From the NCBI GenBank assembly GCA_903930765.1, contig CAIYZV010000291.1, positions 1 through 33,146 on the forward strand: a stretch of 33,146 nucleotides of DNA, read 5' to 3'. The notes beneath the pieces are model-generated. The model had not been told where the DNA came from. It was given only the letters and a program-made list of their open reading frames with translations, and searched no databases. The DNA comes from an uncultured Pirellula sp. Lineage in GTDB: Bacteria > Planctomycetota > Planctomycetia > Pirellulales > Pirellulaceae. Shown in pieces: positions 3,364-9,304 of the stretch (the first letter of the stretch is position 1; each line of letters starts with the position of its first letter). A program made the translations under genes and the position numbers.

Positions 3364-3944
3364 AAATCGCGCAAAGTCCTTTCCAGCGAGGGGGTATTTG
3401 GCTTACGAGCAAACCAACCTTAGCACGCTGAATTTCATCAACTGAAAGCCAAGTCGCCGGAAAGGGTGTGAAATGGTATTTAGGCGTTCGGGATAGTTTG
3501 CCTAGTGAAACTAGGGCAGCACTGGCAAACCTTGCGATTTGTTCCTTTGCCTCCATCTTACTGTGAGCCCAACCGTGAGCGACAACCGATTTGCTCACCT
3601 CCACACTTTTCCCGTCGCTATTCCCTGAGCTAATCCTGGCCAAGATCAGCGTGAAGCTCGCGACTGAAAACCCCGAGCAACCCGTTGCGAATACCTCGCA
3701 GGCTCCATCCCCCGAATCACGCAACCGTTAAAATCGACTAGAACTCGCCGTTGGATTAAGCGTAGGATTCGTCAGGCCTTTTTGGTTTCGGAGACTTGTC
3801 AATGTCTTCGAGCTGAACGATCATTTTTCAGACCAGCGCATTTTTCAGACCACCGCATTTTCAGACCAGCGAGATTCCCCCGTTGCTTGAGCTTGCAAAC
3901 GGTGCTTTCCTCCCATGTTCCCTCCGAGAATAAGAACCACTTCC
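3364..3944. other. Gene-free divergent spacer between glgX and the LRR protein
   Basis: About 580 bp separate the divergent starts of glgX and the LRR gene. I see a three-copy 17 bp repeat (annotated separately) but no convincing promoter pair; TTGTCA at 3796-3801 lacks a good -10 box. Open frames here, including one ending at 3338 inside the glgX start, lack protein-like features. Confidence 0.6.
3822..3871 (+). repeat. Three tandem copies of a 17 bp unit
   Basis: The unit CATTTTTCAGACCAGCG occurs at 3822-3838, with one mismatch at 3839-3855 and with one T deleted at 3856-3871. It lies 70 bp upstream of the LRR protein start and may be a slippage-prone minisatellite. Confidence 0.95.
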
Positions 3945-5282
3945 ATGAGATCCTATCGCAATTCGCACGCCAACCGTCCAAAGCGAAGTACATTCTGCCT
4001 TGCGTTTGGTTTGTCGCTGGGTTGCGCTGGTTTTGTAGGGGCCTATGCATCGACAAACGCAGGGCCGTCGGTATTTGCACAAGACAGCTCGCGGAAGGGA
4101 GATGCGCCCTCAGCCGACGCGATCGCGGCTATTAAGAAGATGGTTGGGGTTGCCGTCCAAGAAAAAGATGGTGAATTGATCGCCGTCGATTTTAGAAAAT
4201 GCGGCGACAATTGGATCGATACCTACCCGCGCGTTTTGGAAATACCCTCGGTGCAAACCATCTCGGTCAGCGGACCACTAGCTACCCACGAACGCATCGT
4301 GGCTCTTGGAAAGCTTCCGAACTTGAAGGCGTTGCGATTGGAACAAGCCGCCATCACCGACGAGACCATCGCTGAGGTGGCGAAATTCCCAAAGATCGAC
4401 GACGTCAATTTGGATCGATGCCCCGTGACCGACGAGTGCTTGAAGAGCCTCGGAAAATCCCCCAACATCAAACGGATCCGAGCACCTCGGACCAAGCTTT
4501 CCGACAAAGGACTTGAGTATCTTAAAGACACAGTGCAACTGGAACTTCTCGATCTCTCCGATTGCAATCAGATCAGCGACGCAGGGCTCGCCCACCTCAA
4601 GGGGCTCACCAAATTGCGAAACCTCAGCTTGTGGGGGCCTCGGATCACCGATGACGGAATGCCCAATCTAGCCGGAATGACCAATATGGTCGCGATCTCC
4701 TTTCAAGACTGCGGTGTGACCGACGCGAGTTTTACACACCTTTCGGGCATGACCAAGCTCAAAGAGTTCGACATCTTCCGAACCCGTGTTGGCAACGATG
4801 CCTTGGCTGCAATCGCCGGAGCCAAGGACATGTCCAAAATGAAGCTGCGCGACTGCGCGATCACAACCAAGGGACTCGTTGAACATATCGGAAAATTCCC
4901 CAATGTGACGGTGCTCGATATCAGCGAGACATCGATCAAAGACGCCGCGATGGTGGAGATCGGTAAATTGCCCAAGCTCGAGGATCTCAATCTTTGGCAC
5001 ACACGAGTCACCGATCAAGGTGTAGGGGCGTTGGTGGATTGCAAACTCAAGAAACTAAACTTGGACGATACCAATGTCGGCGATGGTGCCATCGAATCGG
5101 TCGCGAAGATAAGCTCGCTCGAGTTTCTCCATCTCGGAAAAACCGCGGTCACCGACGAAGGGATCCAAGGCTTAGCGAAGCTGACCCATCTGAAGGATTT
5201 GATCCTGACCAACACGGGCCTGAGCAAAAAGGGTGTCGCGGAACTTCAGGCCAAACTACCCAAGACGAACATTAAGTACTGA
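3945..5282 (+). CDS. Secreted leucine-rich-repeat protein
   Basis: This exported protein of about 445 residues consists almost entirely of leucine-rich repeats. The N-terminus (MRSYRN, then basic residues and a hydrophobic stretch near residues 18-35, ending around VFAQ) looks like a Sec signal peptide. From about residue 95 a 23-25 residue repeat of the type L..L.L....(I/V)TD.G(L/I)..L runs to the C-terminus, roughly a dozen copies, as in the cysteine-containing or RNI-like LRR class common in planctomycetes. Such proteins usually bind other proteins at the cell surface or in the periplasm; no enzymatic domain is visible and the partner is unknown. An earlier in-frame ATG at 3915 would add ten residues; I prefer 3945 because it puts the basic region at the signal-peptide N-terminus, but no Shine-Dalgarno site decides it. 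Confidence 0.85.
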   Translation: MRSYRNSHANRPKRSTFCLAFGLSLGCAGFVGAYASTNAGPSVFAQDSSRKGDAPSADAIAAIKKMVGVAVQEKDGELIAVDFRKCGDNWIDTYPRVLEIPSVQTISVSGPLATHERIVALGKLPNLKALRLEQAAITDETIAEVAKFPKIDDVNLDRCPVTDECLKSLGKSPNIKRIRAPRTKLSDKGLEYLKDTVQLELLDLSDCNQISDAGLAHLKGLTKLRNLSLWGPRITDDGMPNLAGMTNMVAISFQDCGVTDASFTHLSGMTKLKEFDIFRTRVGNDALAAIAGAKDMSKMKLRDCAITTKGLVEHIGKFPNVTVLDISETSIKDAAMVEIGKLPKLEDLNLWHTRVTDQGVGALVDCKLKKLNLDDTNVGDGAIESVAKISSLEFLHLGKTAVTDEGIQGLAKLTHLKDLILTNTGLSKKGVAELQAKLPKTNIKY

Positions 5283-5388
5283 TCGCTAGCGAGCGATCGA
5301 GCCGGATTACGGCTGGTCGAAAGACTGGCGTTTTCGTAGCAAAAACCCGGTTTTCTTCCGAAATACAAGCGGCTCTCCAAAAGTGCTG

Positions 5389-5418
5389 TTGACAGGGCTT
5401 GGGCCAGTTTCGTAATTG
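5389..5418 (+). promoter_or_regulatory. Candidate promoter for the downstream RNA
   Basis: A perfect consensus -35 hexamer TTGACA lies at 5389-5394. A weak -10 follows at 17-18 bp (GTAATT at 5412-5417 or TAATTG at 5413-5418). Transcription would start near 5424, which makes a transcript of about 330 nt to the terminator at 5727-5758. The -10 is poor, so this is a hypothesis. Confidence 0.4.
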
Positions 5419-5680
5419 CTTGGATCAGCGACGAGTACCGCCGACGGCATTGGCTCGAGCGCAGGTAAACCGAGGTCGACGGACGCACCCCCAAAAGGGT
5501 GTGTTGTGGTCCTTGGGAACCGAATCACAAGAGAACAAAAAAAGGCTCTATCGTCGGTCGAGAATTTGCGGGAATGCTCGACTGGCCTTCCTCCTGGGTT
5601 GGAGCAGCATATAGCCAGCGATCTGTAGTTACTGGGTCAATTGCAGAACGCTGGTGCTTCACGATAGAGCTTACGACTGC

Positions 5681-5714
5681 GCACCGGGACAAACCGCATG
5701 GTTTGTCCCGGTGC
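5681..5714 (+). repeat. Perfect 15 bp inverted repeat (hairpin, GCAT loop)
   Basis: GCACCGGGACAAACC at 5681-5695 is followed by the loop GCAT and by its exact reverse complement at 5700-5714. It sits 10 nt after the junction-closing stem and 12 nt before the terminator hairpin, so it is probably the penultimate helix of the RNA. It could also be a protein-binding inverted repeat. Confidence 0.9.
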
Positions 5715-5726
5715 CAGGGAACAGAA

Positions 5727-5758
5727 GGCCGATGGGAAACCATCGGCCTTTTTGTTTT
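5727..5758 (+). terminator. Intrinsic terminator with GAAA tetraloop
   Basis: GGCCGATGG (5727-5735), loop GAAA (5736-5739) and CCATCGGCC (5740-5748) form a 9 bp GC-rich stem followed directly by TTTTTGTTTT. This is a textbook plus-strand rho-independent terminator. No protein gene ends just upstream, which supports a non-coding transcript. Confidence 0.92.
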
Positions 5759-5798
5759 CCCTTGGGCAATCAACCCGATCTGCACTTAAGACACTCGC

Positions 5799-5804
5799 TA
5801 TAAT
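5799..5804 (+). promoter_or_regulatory. Consensus -10 box upstream of the DHH phosphoesterase gene
   Basis: TATAAT lies 36 bp upstream of the ATG at 5840 and just after the terminator, where a promoter for the next gene is expected. No good -35 hexamer is seen at 17 bp (CGATCT). Confidence 0.45.
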
Positions 5805-5839
5805 GCCGTCTTTCCACGTGTTAACTTTTGTTTTTAGAA

Positions 5840-6838
5840 ATGCCCCTCATGACCCTCGCCTGGGACAAACTGATTCCGATCCTTCGATCGCATCATCGAT
5901 TCATTTTGACGAGCCACATTCGGCCCGACTGCGATGCCTTGGGCAGCGAACTTGGAATGGCCGGGATCTTGGAGGCGCTTGGCAAACAAGTCACGATTAT
6001 CAATGGCCATCCCACCCCACCCATCCTTACGTTTTTGGATCCTCGGCAAAATATCCGAGTGCTCGGTGAGACGATCCAAGCCGACGAGGTCTCCGGCGAT
6101 TGCTTGATCATCCTGGACACCAGCGCCTGGGCTCAATTGGGCCCCATGGCGGAAGTGGTGCGCCGCTTCAATGGACGCAAGATCGTGATCGATCACCATG
6201 TGGGCGAGGACGACCTAGGCACCGAGTTCTACAAAGACACCAGCGCCGAGGCAACGGGCCATCTTGTGGCGCTGTGCGCCAAAGAAGCTGGCGTGCCGAT
6301 TACCAAGTCGATGGCCAATGCGCTTTATGCTGCCATCGCAACCGACACCGGTTGGTTCCGATTTGCATCGACCACGAGCGCTACGTATCGCATCATCGCA
6401 GACTTGGTCGATTGCGGCGCTTCGCCATCGACCATCTACGGTGATCTCTATGAGCGGGACACGATCGGTCGAGTTCGATTGCGAGGTCGAATCCTTTCAC
6501 GGGCCATCGAGGAATGCAATGGACAACTGGTGCATACTTATGTTCGCAAAGATGACTTCGCCGAATCAGGCGCCTTGCCCAGCGATACCGAAGATGCCAT
6601 CAATTTGACGCTGGCGGTGGAAGGGACCAAGGTGGCGGTCATCATGATCGAGCAACTCAAGGGTGGCTACAAAGTCTCGTTCCGATCCCGATGCCACGTC
6701 GATTGCAATGAAGTCGCACGGCAATTCGGCGGCGGCGGCCACCGCGCTGCCGCGGGAGCGTTCATGGAGGGGGAGTTCATCGACGTCCAAAACCGCGTCC
6801 TCCAAGCCGTTCGAGCCGCACTTTTGAAGGGTGCGTGA
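5840..6838 (+). CDS. nrnA: DHH/DHHA1 phosphoesterase, NrnA-type oligoribonuclease/pAp phosphatase
   Basis: Members of this family degrade short RNA or linear dinucleotides and dephosphorylate 3'-phosphoadenosine 5'-phosphate in the cytoplasm, using two metal ions. The 332-residue protein has the DHH domain first: HIRPDCDALGSE (His26, Asp30, Asp32), ILDTSAW with Asp93, and the signature VIDHHVG with Asp118-His119-His120. A further metal-site Asp lies in AIATDTGWFRF near 169. The C-terminal DHHA1 domain ends with FGGGGHRAAAG (Gly297-His301), the substrate-binding loop. The frame is open to a TTG at 5828; ATG 5840 or ATG 5849 is a more natural start, and no Shine-Dalgarno site decides between them. 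A clean terminator lies upstream, so it is probably the first gene of its own transcript. The split between NrnA-like and c-di-AMP phosphodiesterase specificity cannot be settled from motifs alone. Confidence 0.9.
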   Translation: MPLMTLAWDKLIPILRSHHRFILTSHIRPDCDALGSELGMAGILEALGKQVTIINGHPTPPILTFLDPRQNIRVLGETIQADEVSGDCLIILDTSAWAQLGPMAEVVRRFNGRKIVIDHHVGEDDLGTEFYKDTSAEATGHLVALCAKEAGVPITKSMANALYAAIATDTGWFRFASTTSATYRIIADLVDCGASPSTIYGDLYERDTIGRVRLRGRILSRAIEECNGQLVHTYVRKDDFAESGALPSDTEDAINLTLAVEGTKVAVIMIEQLKGGYKVSFRSRCHVDCNEVARQFGGGGHRAAAGAFMEGEFIDVQNRVLQAVRAALLKGA

Positions 6839-7103: not shown

Positions 7104-8246
7104 ATGAGAAAGTTGATCGCGCGTTGTTTTGTAGTAACTGTAGCATTCGCTGCAGCGTGCTTCGTCGGTGAATCAGCGATCGCTGGATACGGTTCCAGCG
7201 GTGGGTCATCGGGTGGCTATGGCTCCACTGGCAATGGCTCAAGTGGTGGCTCGTCCGGAGCTGCTTACTACGGGACCTATACCGGCTCGTCCGGGGGCGG
7301 TACCTCCGGTGGACATGCAGGACCACTCCGTCGTTTGCACCAAAAAGTCCACGACCATCTCGCGGCCAAGCACGCTCGTCACGTCGCGCGGCGCAGCTCC
7401 TACTCGGGCGGTTCTTCGGGCGGTTCCTCCGGTTACTATACCTCCGGTTACGGCAGTTCAGGCAGCTACGGTGGCTCGTCGGGTGGCTCCTCCGGTGGCT
7501 CGTCGTACGTGACCCGCGGAAGCGGTTCCTCCGGTGGGGGCTCTTCCGGTGGCGGATCCTCGGGCGGACATGTCTACAGCAGCGCTTACGGTAGCAGCGC
7601 GTACGGTAGCAGCTATGCTCCAACCATGACCTACGGCTCCTACGAGAGCTCGTCTGTTCTCGGATCGGATTTGACCTCCTCCTATGCGGTGAATCGCATC
7701 GCCCCATCGCAGTCAGCCGAATCATTTTCGGTTGGGTCGAGCGAAATCCAGCTGTTGGTCGAGGTACCGATGAATGCCAAGGTTTTCGTCAATGGAAATA
7801 CGACAACGTCCCAAGGCTCGATGCGTCGGTTTGTGAGCCGCGATCTGGGCAGCAATGAAACGTATCGCTTCGAAGTCCAAGCCATCTACAACGTTGATGG
7901 CAAGGAAGTCAATCAAACCAAGACGGTGATCGCAAAGTCAGGCTCGTCGGAAAAGGTCGTTTTCGAAGGGGCCCAAAGCGACGACCCCGTCGAAACAACG
8001 TTGACCCTGAACGTTCCTGCCGATGCGACCGTGGTATTGGCCAACAACCAAACCAAAAGCGATGGAACCACACGGGTCTATCGAACAGGTCAATTGAAGA
8101 CTGGGGAAGCGTGGGAAGACTACAAAATTGCAGTCACCCATAAAGGTGTCACCAAGGAAAAAACTATCCGTTTGATCGGTGGCGACAAGCTTGAGATGAG
8201 CTTCAATTTCGAAGATCATTCCGCCAACAAAGTCGCATCGAACTAG
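7104..8246 (+). CDS. Secreted Gly/Ser-rich protein with two TIGR03000 domains
   Basis: The protein has 380 residues and begins with a clear signal peptide, with cleavage likely after ESAIA near residue 27. Residues 28-200 are low complexity, dominated by GGSSGG and YGSS units, with a short basic island (RRLHQKVHDHLAAKHARHVA) near 70-95. The C-terminal half holds two related beta-rich modules, about 210-285 (LLVEVPMNAKVFVNG) and 290-370 (LTLNVPADATVVLANN), matching the planctomycete-specific TIGR03000 domain, whose function is unknown. An extracellular or envelope structural role is plausible. The start is well supported by GAGGAG at 7094-7099, four bases before the ATG. A strong terminator follows, so it is probably monocistronic. 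The high Gly/Ser content creates long antisense open frames that are not genes. Confidence 0.88.
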   Translation: MRKLIARCFVVTVAFAAACFVGESAIAGYGSSGGSSGGYGSTGNGSSGGSSGAAYYGTYTGSSGGGTSGGHAGPLRRLHQKVHDHLAAKHARHVARRSSYSGGSSGGSSGYYTSGYGSSGSYGGSSGGSSGGSSYVTRGSGSSGGGSSGGGSSGGHVYSSAYGSSAYGSSYAPTMTYGSYESSSVLGSDLTSSYAVNRIAPSQSAESFSVGSSEIQLLVEVPMNAKVFVNGNTTTSQGSMRRFVSRDLGSNETYRFEVQAIYNVDGKEVNQTKTVIAKSGSSEKVVFEGAQSDDPVETTLTLNVPADATVVLANNQTKSDGTTRVYRTGQLKTGEAWEDYKIAVTHKGVTKEKTIRLIGGDKLEMSFNFEDHSANKVASN

Positions 8247-8329: not shown

Positions 8330-8443
8330 GTTTGGGGAAAATCGCGGGGCGAGTTTTTGGGAGACTTAAAATCCGATACACTATCGAAAGATGGTTGGAA
8401 TTCCCCCACGTGCGATTTAGCCCCATTTTGGCGGAGGTTTGCA

Positions 8444-9304
8444 ATGGCCACTGAATTGATGGATTCCGAATTGATGGATTCAGAACTGAACGGTTCTAGA
8501 GGGTGCTGCCTTACATCCGGCTTCCGAAAATCGCTCGGAAATTGGGGGCCATTCCTGGCGGGTTCCTTGGCAGGTCTCGGACTTTGCGCTGCATTGGCCG
8601 TTGCGTTTTGGTGCGGGCGAGCTAGCTCGAACCCATCCGAATGGCAGAGCCTTTCGGCGATTCCCTCGGACCGTATCCATCCTGAACTCCGCGGAATTGA
8701 GCAACTGCGAGCATCCGCGACGCACGGCGGTCCGACGATGGCGGTATGTACCGCACAAGTGGACGAAAACGCGGAAGGATTCTTTACATTGGATTACCTC
8801 ACCGGAGATCTCAAGGGCTGGGTCTACTACCCTCGCATGGCGGCCTTTGGCGGTCTCTTTGCAACCAATGTCCTCCAATACCTTGGCCCTCCAGGAAAGA
8901 ACCCTGAGTACCTGCTGATCAGCGGCGGCGCCCTTCCGGGACCATCCGGCTCCAACGTCCGCGCTGCTTCGTCACTCCTCTATGTCATCGATGTCAAACT
9001 GGGTTCTTTTGTCGCGTTTACGATTCCTTGGAACCGATCGATGGAGAACTCCGGTGTTCAACAAATGAATACGTTTGTGCCCGTGGGTGGGGACTTCATT
9101 CGACCCATGATGGGTCCCGGCAATCGCAAGCCACCTGCTGTGAATCCCAACGCGAATAACAAGGCTGGGAACGCGAATCCTAACCCGAACGATCCGAACA
9201 ATGGCGATCCGGATAACCCAGATCCCAATGCTCCGAATCCAAACCAGCCACCCAAAAACAATCAGCCCAATAACAATAACAACAACCGGAAGCCTGCGAA
9301 GTAG
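8444..9304 (+). CDS. Membrane-anchored protein with Asn/Pro-rich tail, function unknown
   Basis: I do not recognise a named family. The 286-residue protein starts at ATG 8444, supported by GGAGG at 8433-8437 six bases upstream; the frame runs back to a TTG at 8357 that has no such site. An N-terminal cytoplasmic stretch contains three tandem five-residue units (ELMDS, ELMDS, ELNGS). One transmembrane helix follows at about residues 32-55 (FLAGSLAGLGLCAALAVAFW). A compact domain of about 150 residues then contains VCTAQVDENAEGFFTLDYLTGDLKGW and ends near IPWNRSMENSG. The last 65 residues are almost only Asn, Pro, Asp, Gly and Lys (NPNPNDPNNGDPDNPDPN), likely disordered and outside the membrane. 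Its stop lies nine bases before the BtaA-like gene, so the two are probably co-transcribed. Confidence 0.75.
   Translation: MATELMDSELMDSELNGSRGCCLTSGFRKSLGNWGPFLAGSLAGLGLCAALAVAFWCGRASSNPSEWQSLSAIPSDRIHPELRGIEQLRASATHGGPTMAVCTAQVDENAEGFFTLDYLTGDLKGWVYYPRMAAFGGLFATNVLQYLGPPGKNPEYLLISGGALPGPSGSNVRAASSLLYVIDVKLGSFVAFTIPWNRSMENSGVQQMNTFVPVGGDFIRPMMGPGNRKPPAVNPNANNKAGNANPNPNDPNNGDPDNPDPNAPNPNQPPKNNQPNNNNNNRKPAK
8453..8497 (+). repeat. In-frame tandem repeat of 15 bp inside a coding region
   Basis: GAATTGATGGATTCC occurs at 8453-8467, with one mismatch at 8468-8482, and in diverged form at 8483-8497. It encodes three consecutive five-residue units near the N-terminus of the membrane protein. Confidence 0.9.

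Follow-up and report, generated by a model that had tools for sequence, protein, structure and literature searches.

A candidate family of branched structured RNAs spread across the class Planctomycetia

The stretch of DNA analysed here, 33,146 nucleotides of a contig from an uncultured Pirellula sp. (hereafter, the window), carries on its plus strand, at positions 5424-5757, what appears to be the gene of a structured non-coding RNA. Judged from comparative sequence analysis, this is a new family of structured RNAs, spread class-wide and with no function assigned; what is new is the RNA family, a folded non-coding RNA being a familiar type of molecule. The RNA is usually present in a single copy and has two near-invariant loops. 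A first-pass annotation of the window had proposed a new structured RNA with a promoter and a terminator, and this proposal is strongly supported by the covariation of the helices, the lack of an Rfam match and the spread across the class. The family is defined by two covariance models, R1 and R2, and by an alignment, A4. The explanation that we favour, and hold to be rather probable, is that of a stand-alone, trans-acting structured RNA with the loops UUGCGGG and CUGGGUC as its likely points of contact. The following features were recognized (window coordinates):

3915-5282, plus strand: leucine-rich-repeat protein gene, upstream neighbour (context, outside the RNA; common to part of the genus)
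5389-5394, plus strand: -35 box TTGACA (seen in the sequence; TTGAC aligned in 10/10 same-genus loci, window included)
5411-5416, plus strand: probable -10 element CGTAAT (4/6, spacing 16; TAAT aligned in 9/10 loci including the window, L020 having TAGT)
5424-5542, plus strand: lineage-specific 5' segment of the expected transcript (folded, not conserved)
5543-5553, plus strand: P1, 5' strand, pairing with 5662-5672 (11/11 pairs change on both sides; pairing in 98.4% of cells)
5557-5582, plus strand: hairpin H1, loop motif UUGCGGG at 5566-5572 (UUGCGGG in 93/100 homologues, GCGGG in 98/100)
5584-5599, plus strand: hairpin H2, loop UUCCUCCU at 5588-5595, anti-Shine-Dalgarno-like (CCUCC in the loop in 84/100)
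5601-5605, plus strand: P2, 5' strand GGAGC, pairing with GCUUC at 5656-5660 (97.3% of cells paired)
5614-5655, plus strand: P3 (5614-5620/5649-5655) and P4 (5622-5630/5639-5647) (16/16 counted pairs change on both sides)
5631-5638, plus strand: P4 loop ACUGGGUC (UGGGUC in 100/100, CUGGGUC in 97/100)
5656-5660, plus strand: P2, 3' strand GCUUC (pairing counts, variants)
5662-5672, plus strand: P1, 3' strand (covariation count)
5677-5717, plus strand: long hairpin H4 with a CUG/CAG closure and a 15-bp perfect upper stem (sequence and alignment)
5723-5757, plus strand: intrinsic terminator with stem 5723-5752, GAAA loop and T-rich tail (sequence and relatives)
5828-6838, plus strand: DHH/DHHA1 phosphoesterase gene, downstream neighbour (context only; linked to the RNA only in close relatives)

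Positions 5424-5757 fold with an energy of -167.5 kcal/mol (z = -8.4; 0/100 shuffles as good), and the expected length of the RNA in the window's species is about 330 nt. The consensus -35 box and the GAAA-loop terminator reported in the first-pass annotation are both present. A consensus scan of 5000-6100 recovered no sigma-70 promoter because the -10 element is weak, and the window promoter also stays below 9/12 by the score for promoter-like sites used below. Terminator-like structures in the same interval are not more numerous than expected by chance (3 versus a shuffle mean of 1.6), and the window terminator draws its support from relatives, which show similar terminators at the same place. 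The 5' segment folds by itself (-45 kcal/mol, z -3.2 for 5424-5540). Among ten aligned loci, however, it occurs at the window's length (5424 to about 5542) only in L002 and L003 besides the window, whereas L010 has a shorter, different stretch at this place; the distance from the -35 box to P1 in the alignment is about 100 bases longer in the window's clade than in L014, L015 and L018-L020. The insertion was thus rejected as a conserved part of the RNA. Further downstream in the window, two long frames (7104-8246 and 8357-9304) have no Pfam match at E <= 0.001.

The conserved part spans 5543-5717, and its core (5541-5673) was aligned for 100 homologues in A4 (99 distinct rows), which combines 93 of 95 covariance-model matches with 7 of the 37 R1-matched loci from a collection of named genomes. 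The refined fold comprises P1, the hairpins H1 and H2 and then P2, which encloses P3/P4. Covarying helices in relatives, named in the first-pass annotation as the support to look for, were found: 43 of the 48 pairs change on both sides, and the covariation score is 0.500, compared to 0.244 for shuffled alignments and 0.088-0.121 with the pairing partners slid. Overall, 87.9% of the A4 cells are paired in the refined structure, a percentage that leans towards this structure because refinement was done on the same sequences; the measures of change on both sides and the slid control are better guides. The core alone has a z of -5.4, and its reverse strand of -3.9. In an alignment of 27 homologues (A1), RNAalifold predicted 56 pairs, and at 38 of these both sides change at least once; H4 contains many such pairs. 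Before A1 was built, a 31-base chance match (L027) and two opposite-strand palindrome matches (L029 and L030) were dropped; two opposite-strand or partial palindrome matches were likewise removed from alignment A3 before counting.

Several elements described from the window alone are borne out by the letters, namely, the perfect 10-bp stem (5545-5554 with 5661-5670), the perfect 15-bp hairpin (5681-5695/5700-5714, loop 5696-5699) and the 1x1 A-A mismatch (A5621/A5648). Three junction hairpins had also been described, and the minimum-energy fold does contain them, but the CUCC/GGAG pairing of one, which also appeared in the first alignment-wide fold, lacks covariation (0/4 pairs with changes on both sides) and was therefore replaced by P2, to which the GGAG strand belongs. 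P2 is present as GAAAC/GUUUC, GAAGC/GCUUC or GGAGC/GCUCC in some lineages. The weakest helix is H2 (72.3% paired), the stem of which is rebuilt in L141 and L191. Single-sequence folds yield the same branched plan for L141, from another genus, and for L188 and L191, from other families; L252 (family f112) folds less clearly (z = -2.3; 3/200 shuffles as good), with P2 appearing only in the centroid. Sequence constraint is centred on two loops, UUGCGGG in H1 and CUGGGUC in P4. The H1 and H2 loops might touch each other through GGG(A/G)-(U/C)CC(C/U) pairing, for which 92.2% of cells are paired; given that partners slid by +1 to +3 are paired in 95.4-96.6% of cells and that a single pair changes on both sides (A-U to G-C, 9 cells), such kissing is offered as a suggestion only.

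A DNA search of 40 genomes, including that of the window, returned matches in 28, one of which (G039) has only a 31-base chance match; the remaining 27 homologues constitute A1. The order Pirellulales was represented by 296 genomes, of which 176, from 93 of 122 genera, matched covariance model R1; for genomes of good quality (>=90% complete, <=5% contaminated), the count is 146/206. A single match was found in 175 genomes and two matches in one (G163). The 120 order genomes with no R1 match include every sampled genome of family f8. In this family (e.g. G031, G049 and G073), R2 gave no match either, the RNA being lost or diverged. R2, which was built from the 100 core sequences with the refined fold, matches 140/297 class genomes (137/261 good ones) and extends the family beyond the order, to families f21, f112, f113 and f115. 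In a sample of the phylum, R1 matched 9/294 genomes and R2 18/294, all of the latter within the class; outside the class, as assigned by listing order, 0/273 sampled phylum genomes match R2. Furthermore, a 17-base pattern occurs at 60 loci in the named genome collection, 37 of which match R1, all with planctomycete titles (Pirellula, Pirellulales, Planctomycetaceae, a Gemmataceae MAG and others); the remaining 23, titled as members of other groups, have no R1 match.

The first-pass annotation had recognized no known class in this RNA, and the Infernal search that it proposed agrees: neither the window nor any of 19 homologue-bearing loci has a match to an Rfam 15 family at or above the gathering threshold. 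With E up to 10, the interval 5300-5900 yields 11 sub-threshold Rfam hits, none near its cut-off, the best being BSR0739 on the minus strand (20.6 bits versus a cut-off of 191). RNase P RNA and tmRNA are matched over their cut-offs elsewhere in the same genome; the best matches for SRP RNA, tmRNA and RNase P RNA lie on contigs C13, C424 and C197, respectively, and the RNA locus on C291. The SRP RNA match (G000:C13:30145-30237) scores 39.8 bits, just below the cut-off of 40. Our literature search, which covered titles and the beginnings of abstracts of CC0, CC BY and CC BY-SA papers, retrieved no description of such an RNA, and the main text of PMC11109978 contains none of five planctomycete terms. 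The RNA resembles the orphan structured RNA candidates from comparative screens (e.g. PMC2864571) in having a conserved fold and no assigned function. The sole candidate listed there with Planctomycetes (plus Proteobacteria) is Rhodopirellula-1, marked 'y' for cis-regulatory; its table entry has no Rfam accession.

6S RNA folds into a single long, irregular hairpin that has a bubble at its centre; it binds RNA polymerase and serves as a template for pRNA. The RNA described here is similar to it (RF00013) in size, in being usually present in one copy, in its class-wide spread and in being a stand-alone gene at some loci; it differs in its branched, covarying fold, where H1 and H2 occupy the P1/P2 junction. 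Neither the window nor the rest of its genome yields an RF00013 match (48 candidates scored; 5 control genomes positive). RF00013 matches 124/198 class genomes; for the order to which the window belongs, the listed matches are limited to G167, G025 and G049, none of them reaching the cut-off. Given that 40 genomes match the models of both RNAs, 27 of them with 6S RNA over its cut-off, the new RNA, whose locus is separate from that of 6S RNA, is not 6S RNA under another name.

The neighbours of the RNA are often genes of the mur cluster. By tblastn, murE/murF immediately precede the RNA in 69 of the 117 distinct loci with flanks, a subset of the matched genomes (121 loci minus four contigs present twice). 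In these 69 loci, the RNA is followed by mraY in 30, by a MurG-like gene in 13 and by neither in 26; one further locus has MurG only, after the RNA, and 47 have no queried mur gene. These labels use few query proteins, so that diverged mur genes can be missed, and matches to the query labelled FtsW are read as MurG-like because it contains MurG. On representatives, the labels were upheld by matches above cut-off to TIGR01085 (murE), TIGR01143 (murF) and TIGR00445 (mraY) and, for the MurG-like gene, by two glycosyltransferase-28 domains. In 81 loci with frames from a home-made caller, a Mur-ligase-like frame is among the four nearest on either side in 52 and is the nearest upstream frame in 48; the nearest downstream frame is variable and, in 25 of the 77 loci that have one, lies on the opposite strand. 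In a set of 14 f21 loci taken with their flanks, murE and murF are upstream in 14/14 and mraY is downstream in 11/14, and at 13 loci from f112, f113 and f115 none of the query genes was found. In L164, L165, L167 and L187, the match to the RNA is full and the adjoining Mur-ligase frame is only 161-176 aa long, which suggests a murF that is decaying or split. The order murE-murF-RNA-mraY is probably the ancestral one.

Only 32 of the 296 order genomes have mraY over the curated TIGR00445 cut-off. In 29 of these 32, the RNA and the mraY match share a strand, and the RNA precedes the match by 109-559 bases; in two others the two genes are on different contigs, and in the last one, with no RNA match, the mraY match begins 247 bases from a contig end. 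At E <= 0.001, 247 order genomes give some mraY match; many of these matches are weak and probably represent related transferases; the window's genome has two such matches, the best of E 2.9e-18, of the weak type. A constant association with a downstream gene thus holds where mraY exceeds the cut-off and fails in the window and at 47/117 loci.

Promoter-like sites, scored simply as at least 9/12 within 100 bases upstream of the RNA, are present at 14/48 loci with no mur genes (families f1, f112 and f115), at 0/68 loci with them and in 41/2139 control pieces. Terminator-like hairpins (<= -14 kcal/mol), assessed with a similarly home-made score, were found at 29/48 non-mur loci, 14/25 loci with mur genes only and 12/43 loci with mraY or murG behind the RNA; one locus was too short and was left out of both counts. 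At the f21 loci L192-L194, a T-run begins at most 3 bases after P1, and in L267/L268 a T-rich run stands behind the hairpin that follows P1.

The placement before mraY, the arrangement in f21 and these T-runs all speak for a cis-regulatory element of the peptidoglycan genes, attenuator- or riboswitch-like, that would control read-through into mraY and of which the stand-alone copies would be relocated derivatives. Riboswitches and ribozymes upstream of cell-wall genes are known, glmS being an example, and the new RNA resembles such elements in that, within part of the class, its branched fold precedes a cell-wall gene; unlike them, it is kept in genomes lacking mraY over the cut-off. Indeed, most RNA-bearing order genomes have no such mraY, and a general requirement of the RNA for mraY is not borne out (176 versus 32 order genomes). 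Together with the loci devoid of queried mur genes, the downstream frames on the opposite strand and the promoter- and terminator-like sites of the window copy, this makes cis-regulation unlikely as the general explanation. Operon-embedded small RNAs are a known general class as well, and the RNA is similar to them in lying between likely operon genes in many relatives; it differs in also occurring off-operon, with promoter-like sites in f1, f112 and f115. A base-pairing small RNA, the exposed CCUCC of which, in the H2 loop (UUCCUCCU in the window), would mask the Shine-Dalgarno sequences of target mRNAs, accords with the presence of this motif in most of the core sequences. However, CCUCC is missing in 16/100, including all four f21 sequences of A4, L140-L142 and L147, H1 and the P4 loop are kept where it is missing, and the H2 loop could pair with the H1 loop instead; we consider this reading decidedly unlikely.

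That the RNA is a functional stand-in for 6S RNA in the Pirellulales, regulating RNA polymerase, is suggested by the lack of an RF00013 match in the window's genome and by the absence of 6S RNA from this order reported in PMC5673643 after a 6S survey. The co-occurrence of both RNAs in 40 genomes and a fold that is not a single long hairpin with a central bubble make this very improbable. The first-pass annotation had alternatively suggested a leader for the phosphoesterase gene, and the DHH frame does begin about 70 bases past the terminator on the same strand. This suggestion did not survive comparison within the genus: a DHH gene adjoins the RNA at only 4 of the 23 same-genus loci searched by tblastn (L001, L002, L003 and L010 among L001-L023; L011 and L017, with about 400 bases of downstream flank, are weak negatives), and elsewhere in the class the RNA is conserved without this neighbour. 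Assignment of the RNA to the DHH gene was rejected on the neighbour count, which leaves the leader reading with hardly any probability. A short protein-coding gene is less credible still and may be considered negligible: a frame of 96 aa is present (5499-5789), but no frame stays open over the full length in more than 40 of the 100 core sequences, core lengths vary by single bases (127-146 bases, with seven trimmed rows left out) and the changes preserve pairing. The coding reading was rejected on these inconsistent frames and the covariation.

Under the favoured explanation, a stand-alone RNA acting in trans, the conserved RNA unit comprises about 130 nt (P1, H1, H2, P2 and P3/P4), followed by H4 and the terminator. 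The window copy seems to carry a promoter of its own. In many relatives, the RNA probably arises from the murE-murF transcript, because it is located very close behind murF and no promoter is recognizable. We infer the production of a discrete RNA with a role in trans from its retention where mraY is absent, next to Mur-ligase frames that are shortened, and at unrelated loci. The near-invariant loops of H1 and P4 would be the likely contacts, most probably with a protein, as in a ribonucleoprotein or a regulatory RNA. The persistence of the RNA where mraY is missing and at unrelated loci is the strongest evidence for a role in trans, with the RNA detected in 176/296 order genomes and mraY over the cut-off in only 32/296. 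The observation that weighs most against a purely trans role is that the RNA precedes mraY in every testable order genome with mraY over the cut-off; this placement (29/32), which a cis-regulator would also explain, counts against the stand-alone reading, as do the presence of promoter-like sites at only 14 of the 48 stand-alone loci, the low score of the window promoter and the 120 order genomes with no match.

Because the RNA probably had its ancestral place between murF and mraY, it may have a link to envelope or growth physiology. According to PMC10632474, ftsZ has been lost from planctomycetes, and neither the mur genes nor the two mraY genes are essential in Planctopirus limnophila. We tentatively put forward, as a possibility that may well prove wrong, that this is a housekeeping-grade, usually single-copy ribonucleoprotein RNA of the Planctomycetia that arose in, or was moved into, the murF-mraY interval of the division/cell-wall cluster, was kept after decay of the cluster and is tied in its function to the unusual FtsZ-free growth of these bacteria. 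The finding offers a concrete, testable RNA gene for planctomycete biology and a candidate family for Rfam.
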